A DNA stretch of 64,000 nucleotides, from assembly GCF_018449775.1 (NCBI RefSeq), contig NZ_JAAVVB010000003.1:620001-684000 (forward strand), written 5' to 3'. The translations under genes were made by a program, and so were the position numbers. This stretch comes from Mucilaginibacter sp. dw_454. Lineage in GTDB: Bacteria; Bacteroidota; Bacteroidia; Sphingobacteriales; Sphingobacteriaceae. Each line of letters starts with the position of its first letter. The stretch's first letter is position 1. The notes below the pieces were generated by a model. The model was given only the letters and a program-made list of their open reading frames with translations. It did not search any database and was not told the origin of the DNA. Shown here piece by piece: positions 1,761-47,129 of the stretch.

Positions 1761-1766
1761 CCTGTT

Positions 1767-1904
1767 TTGTTTCACGCGGATGTATAACACATGAAACAAG
1801 TGAAACAATATTTTAAGTCAAAATATTGATAATGAATTAATTGTAAAATATGAGTGAAACAAAATGAAACAACAAAAAAGACCTATAAGTATTTTTTTGT
1901 TTCA
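1767..1904. repeat. Heptamer-array intergenic element, copy A (word TGAAACA)
   Basis: Heptamers lie at 1768-1774 (TGTTTCA, inverted), 1792, 1801, 1855 and 1865 (all TGAAACA) and 1898-1904 (TGTTTCA, inverted). The gaps are 17, 2, 47, 3 and 26 nt. From the end of the 1801 word to the 1865 word is exactly 57 nt, the same gap as in copies B and C, where the word is TGGATCA. A further TGAAACA lies at 1948. The element sits in the convergent spacer between the DinB and OsmC genes. No ORF was seen in it. Confidence 0.7.
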
Positions 1905-29354: not shown

Positions 29355-29493
29355 TGATCCAAAACAAACCTAAAAGTCAGGAAAAGTGATCCAACTATTA
29401 AAGTAGTTTAATTATAACGAATTAATTTTCAATGTATTAAATTTTCATGGCGATCCAACTGATCCAAACTGATCCACTTTCTCAGGTGGATCA
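29355..29493. repeat. Heptamer-array intergenic element, copy B (word TGATCCA)
   Basis: Words at 29355, 29387, 29451 (CGATCCA), 29460 and 29470 (all same direction) and the inverted word TGGATCA at 29487-29493. The gaps are 25, 57, 2, 3 and 10 nt. Read in reverse these equal copy C exactly. The last two words form a hairpin. It occupies the divergent spacer between the acyltransferase and M1 peptidase genes. The remaining spacer (29494-29580) shows no clear promoter. Confidence 0.88.
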
Positions 29494-46990: not shown

Positions 46991-47129
46991 TGATCCACGC
47001 GGGAATGTGGATCAGTTTGGATCAATTGGATCACCATAAAATTGCAACTATCTGTAAATTAATAAATTAAATGAAAACTGGTTTAATAGTTGGATCACTT
47101 TTTATGACTTTTAAGTCTTTTTTGGATCA
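46991..47129. repeat. Heptamer-array intergenic element, copy C (word TGGATCA)
   Basis: Inverted word TGATCCA at 46991, then TGGATCA at 47008, 47018, 47027, 47091 and 47123. The gaps are 10, 3, 2, 57 and 25 nt, the exact mirror of copy B. Both copies are 139 bp and align without gaps. The first two words form a hairpin with a CGCGGGAATG loop. It lies in the 306-bp divergent spacer between the DUF1080 gene and the small DUF4359-like gene. Confidence 0.88.

Follow-up and report, generated by a model that had tools for sequence, protein, structure and literature searches.

Small interspersed elements of Mucilaginibacter with a repeated heptamer that differs between subfamilies on a constant scaffold

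The window analysed here is a stretch of 64,000 nt from a Mucilaginibacter genome of 4.70 Mb in 19 contigs (labelled G000). It carries three copies, A, B and C, of a small element built around one repeated seven-letter word, TGAAACA in copy A and TGGATCA in copies B and C, the latter two having a layout of copy A's kind. The features are as follows.

1763..1904, plus strand: copy A, a complete TGAAACA-type element that fits the rigid layout 0(inv)/24/33/87/97/130(inv), as do 36 complete copies of the genome
1768..1774, minus strand: left-end inverted word TGTTTCA of copy A
1775..1782, no strand: 8-nt centre of copy A, CGCGGATG, separating the left inverted word from the first of the direct words
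1783..1789, plus strand: decayed first direct word of copy A, TATAACA; TGYAACA in most copies of the genome, TGAAACA in relatives
1792..1807, plus strand: cluster 1 of copy A, two direct words with a gap of 2 nt
1808..1854, plus strand: AT-rich spacer 1 of copy A, 47 nt; the length is constant at 46-47 nt, the sequence diverged
1819..1831, minus strand: perfect sequence match of copy A, CAAAATATTGATA, to the IHF consensus YAANNNNTTGATW
1855..1871, plus strand: cluster 2 of copy A, two direct words with a gap of 3 nt
1872..1897, no strand: palindromic A/T stretch of copy A, 26 nt, with a GACTTTTAAGTC motif common to the TGGATCA type
1898..1904, minus strand: terminal inverted word TGTTTCA of copy A
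29355..29493, minus strand: copy B, a TGGATCA-type element with one word absent and one decayed (29451-29457, TGGATCG on the minus strand)
46991..47129, plus strand: copy C, a TGGATCA-type element whose cluster 2 is without its second word

The intact words of copy A are TGTTTCA at 1768-1774, TGAAACA at 1792-1798, 1801-1807, 1855-1861 and 1865-1871, and TGTTTCA at 1898-1904. These heptamers, the 2-nt gap in cluster 1, the 26-nt tail gap and the inverted last word were all present in the sequence as first described, and so were TGGATCA and the 25-nt tails of copies B and C. A distance of 57 nt had been reported for all three copies; the number is correct, but it pairs non-equivalent words, since in copy A one has to measure to the second word of cluster 2 to obtain it. 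In the register common to the 36 complete A-type and the 5 complete C-type copies, 47 nt separate the two clusters of A, and those of B and C are 57 nt apart; the second word of cluster 2 has been lost in both B and C. Copy A had been thought to miss a word, which cluster 1 in fact keeps in the decayed form at 1783-1789. The true start of the element also lies about 5 nt earlier than first proposed, as TGTTT at 1763-1767 is conserved among copies. Elsewhere in the window, at 2536-2585, the heptamer ACTAATG is repeated about seven times in tandem beside an FMN-oxidoreductase-like gene.

Over the whole genome, we counted 109 matches to TGAAACA-N2..4-TGAAACA and 31 matches to TGGATCA-N2..4-TGGATCA, and the reversed control patterns gave 0 matches in both cases. 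Most of these pairs belong to one rigid layout per word type, with word starts at 0 (inverted), 24, 33, 87, 97 and 130 (inverted) for TGAAACA and at 0 (inverted), 17, 26, 90, 100 and 132 for TGGATCA. The genome contains about 50 TGAAACA elements and roughly 17-20 more with TGGATCA. Free variation of the TGAAACA-type spacings had been named in advance as the finding that would count against the system; the spacings are rigid instead. Single TGRAWCA words are mildly over-represented in the window (47 versus a shuffle mean of 34), which is all that a chance or simple-repeat artefact of an AT-rich genome has in its favour. Such an artefact is ruled out, its probability being negligible, by the pair matches against empty reversed controls, by the rigid spacing and by the recovery of the scaffold with the word-blind profile described below. 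The A-type and C-type spacers, 47 and 57 nt long, differ by exactly 10 bp. The difference equals one helical turn, as would suit proteins that bind along a single face of the double helix.

The sequence beyond the ends of the genome's A copies is random. A BLAST search with single copies from a relative, G110, against another, G100, returned about 25 dispersed copies whose alignments cover the same ~200 nt and end there, indicating that the unit has boundaries. Sister species have a longer element, in which an inverted word is followed by 8 nt, by two to four direct words with 2-nt gaps and by 46-47 nt; then come two words separated by 3 nt, a stretch of about 80 nt and one or two final words. 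The 8-nt centre after the inverted word was also found in G011, G061, G073, G100, G104 and G110. The first direct word, decayed to TGYAACA in the A type of G000, is TGAAACA in sister species. The full-length form in relatives has the word inverted at its left end and direct at its right end (TGTTTCA...TGAAACA); the C type of G000 likewise has the word inverted between the two ends, and the terminal word of the G000 A type has the other orientation. At the loci examined, no copy encloses a gene that could make it autonomous, and pairs of elements 2-3 kb apart flank ordinary host genes. Other repeats were seen nearby: a second conserved repeat (TTCGCAGNAGTTTCNCGTNG...) lies immediately left of several G100/G110 elements (L258, L242, L269), a second, unrelated dispersed repeat family (L334:952-1198) occurs in G100, G061 and G104, and GAGACGCAA inverted pairs with 69-nt spacing lie directly beside a TGAAACA element of G000 (L075:3891-4060; C13:476.9 kb).

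The spacers carry a further common feature. Spacer 1 of the A type contains a perfect IHF consensus in 56 of 95 cases, with 0.9 expected from Markov shuffles, and a consensus with at most one mismatch in 87 of 95, with 17 expected; it stands at one of two fixed offsets. C-type spacers hold a perfect consensus in 10 of 27 cases (0.25 expected). Spacer 2 of relatives was often seen to read AATCAAATAATTG, also a match to the consensus, an observation made without a count. From these consensus matches, we infer that IHF would bind between the word clusters; in Bacteroidota, the bending protein may be an HU/IHF homologue.

We then consider how the word varies across the genus. The TGAAACA layout is present in 10 and the TGGATCA layout in 5 of 150 genus genomes, several of which have both words. 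When 84,980 species genomes were scanned, the matches listed were all labelled Mucilaginibacter or came from a Bacteroidetes MAG matching a genus member; the elements may occur more widely. For a word-blind profile, 26 elements from nine genomes were used and all letters of the words replaced by N. Besides the known carriers, this profile found TGTAACA elements (L543 in G133; L255:14950 in G100), elements mixing TGAAACA and TGTAACA (L501 in G105; L260:3942 in G110), the further words TGAATCA (L537 in G133), TGGGACA (L513 in G042) and TGARACG (L505 in G006), and looser relatives with TGTAAACCA (G008) and TGTTAACCA. A heptamer repeated at least five times occurred in 12 of 30 word-blind matches versus 0 of 457 control windows, and one repeated at least four times in 16 of 30 versus 1.1% of control windows; some of the 30 lie in or close to the training set, and the strength of the result lies in the new words. 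Since the masked profile recovers elements with at least six words in relatives, the proposal that the word changes in concert while the scaffold is kept is supported. The idea of one private heptamer per element holds as regards the constant scaffold, but the word is private to a subfamily of tens of copies and not to the single copy. Moreover, TGRAWCA is too narrow as the general word, because TGTAACA and TGGGACA are also found, and TGNNNCA fits better. Gene conversion within an element, once suggested as a cause of the concerted change, is not needed: elements with different words replace each other at orthologous loci, and some subfamilies mix TGAAACA and TGTAACA.

Additional arrays were noted alongside. 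L520, L528, L535 and L200 (G008) contain a shorter element family with ends AAATCATGGTTTACA ... TGTAAACCATGATTT and an IHF-like AT-rich spacer between them, L200 also having the TGTAAACCA word six times in tandem. At L521, L527 and L539 (G080), arrays of GTGTAATA/GTGTGATA-like words in another layout lie about 150 nt from a spacer match.

We conclude that the elements, of which these soil bacteria carry dozens, are one superfamily of small, non-coding, non-autonomous interspersed elements of about 95-240 bp. Each is a defined unit with random flanks, in which one word of the form TGNNNCA stands in five to seven copies at fixed spacing, with one or two IHF-type sites in AT-rich spacers, and subfamilies of tens of copies have a word in common.

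The words are far better conserved than the DNA between them. In this genome, the second word pair is exact in 46 of 49 elements with an exact first pair, while spacer 1 has a mean pairwise identity of 0.58 (about 42% of positions differ; identity is 0.35 after shuffling). Unselected fossils would drift alike in words and spacers, so the intact words are unlike what unselected transposition leaves. Seven orthologous G100/G110 elements also keep their main words (aligned flanks about 93% identical), a set that does not prove selection by itself because the pairs were picked by exact words. Words do decay in places: L251:13058 has TGAAGCA and TGCAACA, and its G110 ortholog is intact. Spacer identity between G100 and G110 is 0.86 for orthologs and 0.85 for non-orthologs. 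We do not claim gene conversion for this equality, since it would follow equally well from a burst of the subfamily just before G100 and G110 split.

The elements are intergenic, and 16 of 56 have their start within 25 nt of an upstream same-strand stop codon; when placed at random in gaps of 150 nt or more, 6.5% do so (p=3e-7). Between species with 75-80% nucleotide identity, orthologous loci repeatedly hold an element, and the word is not always the same. L015 (G000, TGAAACA) and L179 (G088, TGGATCA) both follow the terminator of the same gene, and L161 (G061, TGGATCA) and L252/L271 (G100/G110, TGAAACA) both flank the same gene. The L262 locus has different subfamilies in G110 and G100 in the same intergenic region, and at the L334 locus the G061 intergenic region is present without an element. 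Thus, sites gain, lose and exchange elements. A clean recent empty site was not found in seven G100/G110 pairs, a set picked for exact words in which the element is present throughout, and no target-site duplication was seen in the flanks of 36 A copies, which are unrelated on the two sides as judged by eye.

Word conservation so far above spacer conservation may mean that host function dominates. The element could then be a host nucleoprotein or 3'-end element: each copy would serve as a functional array to which a word-reading protein of the chromosome and IHF/HU bind, in nucleoid architecture or in mRNA 3'-end or termination control, and would be inherited vertically after an ancient spread, without mobility today. 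The intact words, the starts just past stop codons and the orthologous positions kept at ~75-80% identity favour such an array. However, the element set differs strongly between relatives, the G100/G110 subfamilies have expanded (mean spacer identity 0.86), and some means of exchange would be needed to replace the word across a whole element at one locus. On balance we consider a purely host element rather unlikely, if still a serious candidate.

We therefore turn to genes that might move the element. A test had been proposed of whether the word classes correlate with a gene family such as a DNA-binding protein or tyrosine recombinase; no word-specific gene was found, and neither Y1/RAYT proteins nor PF17293 tyrosine recombinases were seen to track the element. 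Searches with PF01797 and the G000 Y1 protein and with PF17293, in genomes with and without elements, identified no mobilising gene. RAYT genes, which encode REP-associated tyrosine transposases of the Y1 (HUH) kind, adjoin an element at 487 nt in G000, at ~200 nt in G100 and at ~530 nt in G080, which speaks for a REP/REPIN-type element moved by such an enzyme; REPINs likewise have fixed ends, a diverse spacer and long persistence (PMC8049555). Yet these are two or three of about 30 RAYT genes, about chance level; the other RAYT loci examined carry other palindromes, word-blind matches near RAYT loci are only the known ones, and the element-rich G110 is without a relative of the G000 RAYT. The multi-word layout also lacks REP hallmarks: aligned copies show heptamer arrays and no GTAG- or CGTC-type REP tag with two inverted REP palindromes. 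We consider mobilisation by a RAYT improbable. The G000 RAYT itself lies at L007:2101-2628 (C1:544802-545326), with a diverged relative adjoining an element in G100 (L253) and G080 (C424), and L141 (G000 C13:309017-309356) holds a Y1 transposase in two overlapping frames, possibly frameshifted.

Relatives of lambda-type att sites were also considered, with the heptamers as arm-type sites and the inverted pair around 8-10 nt as the core site of a tyrosine recombinase. Direct words at a 9-10 bp period, an IHF-type site between the clusters and an inverted pair with a short centre fit this proposal. Nevertheless, all 24 genomes tested encode arm-type tyrosine recombinases (PF17293), whether or not they have elements, and carriers show no enrichment; moreover, the arms and the putative core use one and the same word, and the centre of the core differs from copy to copy. 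We give this origin little chance. A phage origin was rejected, as no TGAAACA element was found in IMG/VR, where the TGGATCA matches fit a looser three-word pattern with spans that are mostly multiples of three and were read as coding repeats. Structured RNA was rejected as well: seven element loci gave no Rfam 15 covariance-model match up to E=1, and the TGGATCA type has no tail hairpin, so it is not RNA folding that is conserved.

The anatomy of the elements, with heptamers one turn apart in two clusters and a bend site between, is that of a higher-order nucleoprotein complex of the transpososome or intasome kind. The reading we prefer, to which we give about an even chance, is a trans-mobilised, REPIN/MITE-like family in which a cognate DNA-binding recombinase or transposase would recognise the words as its sites, with the aid of IHF/HU bending. 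Such an enzyme, with one specificity per word, would occupy neighbouring heptamers, one in each helical turn; bending of the spacer by IHF/HU would bring the two word clusters together in a single nucleoprotein complex, which would disperse the element and replace resident elements. A shift in binder specificity would let a new subfamily with a new word spread. Many copies would persist with their words kept, as in REPIN populations, either through a benefit of bound copies or through the loss of decayed ones. The spread, the subfamilies and the exchange are signs of mobility in trans; the intact words and the nearness to stop codons are signs of maintenance. We count for the trans-mobilised reading the rigid layout in 36 complete A copies, the copy number that differs strongly between relatives, the presence in few genus genomes, the boundaries, the other words, the IHF offset, the 10-bp helical-turn difference, the orthologous loci with different words, L262, L334, and the inverted and direct ends. 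Against it, we count that no mobilising gene, target-site duplication or clean recent empty site was found, that words are conserved far above spacers, and that Y1/RAYT and arm-type tyrosine recombinases showed no correlation with the element.

The use of different words by different families points to an undescribed set of sequence-specific DNA-binding enzymes. More speculatively, and with clearly less confidence, these may be a diversifying recombinase or transposase family whose members differ in specificity at the three central letters of TGNNNCA alone, each member driving a co-evolving population of IHF-bent, multi-heptamer elements that take over the sites of others. If so, a naturally occurring series of re-programmed DNA-binding specificities would be recorded in the genome. 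In any case, a superfamily that keeps its scaffold, swaps its recognition word everywhere at once and has tens of copies per word is a ready data set for joint change of specificity and target, and perfect words at loci whose spacers have drifted by ~40% pose a sharp question.

Small interspersed elements with conserved ends are already known, and in the literature searched, mostly outside subscription journals, we found no published description of this one. It shares with REPIN/RAYT systems a small non-coding intergenic unit, a conserved recognition sequence with a diverse spacer, tens of copies, vertical persistence and a location near gene 3' ends. It differs from their two palindromic REPs in its five to seven heptamer copies, the IHF-type site at a fixed offset and several word classes per scaffold, and its RAYT linkage appears weak. 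As in lambda-type attP arms, where an IHF bend lies between direct arm-type sites at one-turn spacing, direct sites at one-turn spacing flank an IHF-type bend site, here a consensus match; unlike attP, the element has tens of chromosomal copies, the same word in arms and inverted pair, and no integrase attached. The RIP/RIB type BIMEs of E. coli are REP units with an IHF site, and like them the present element has palindromic or repeat units around an IHF-type site downstream of genes, but its units are heptamers with a variable word and not REP sequences. IHF-containing MITEs (Correia/NEMIS; reviewed in PMC2229807) are similarly intergenic and AT-rich, with an IHF site and, as in the full-length form that relatives have of our element, inverted ends; the present element differs in its multiple internal direct words and concerted word classes, and no target-site duplication or partner IS was found for it. 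The TAACTGA heptamer repeats of Beggiatoaceae, which occur sporadically in Bacteroidetes, are also intergenic and lie mostly just upstream of start codons (PMC4679880). They consist of a single heptamer in direct-repeat sets and lack a scaffold, an inverted word and an IHF site, whereas our elements have 2-3 nt gaps, fixed spacers and starts that cluster after stop codons; with layout and position both different, we rejected this identity. REPINs, IHF-bearing MITEs, RIP-type BIMEs and lambda att arms are thus the nearest kinds, each of which lacks some feature or failed a test, and the switching of word classes is the unusual part among small interspersed non-autonomous elements.
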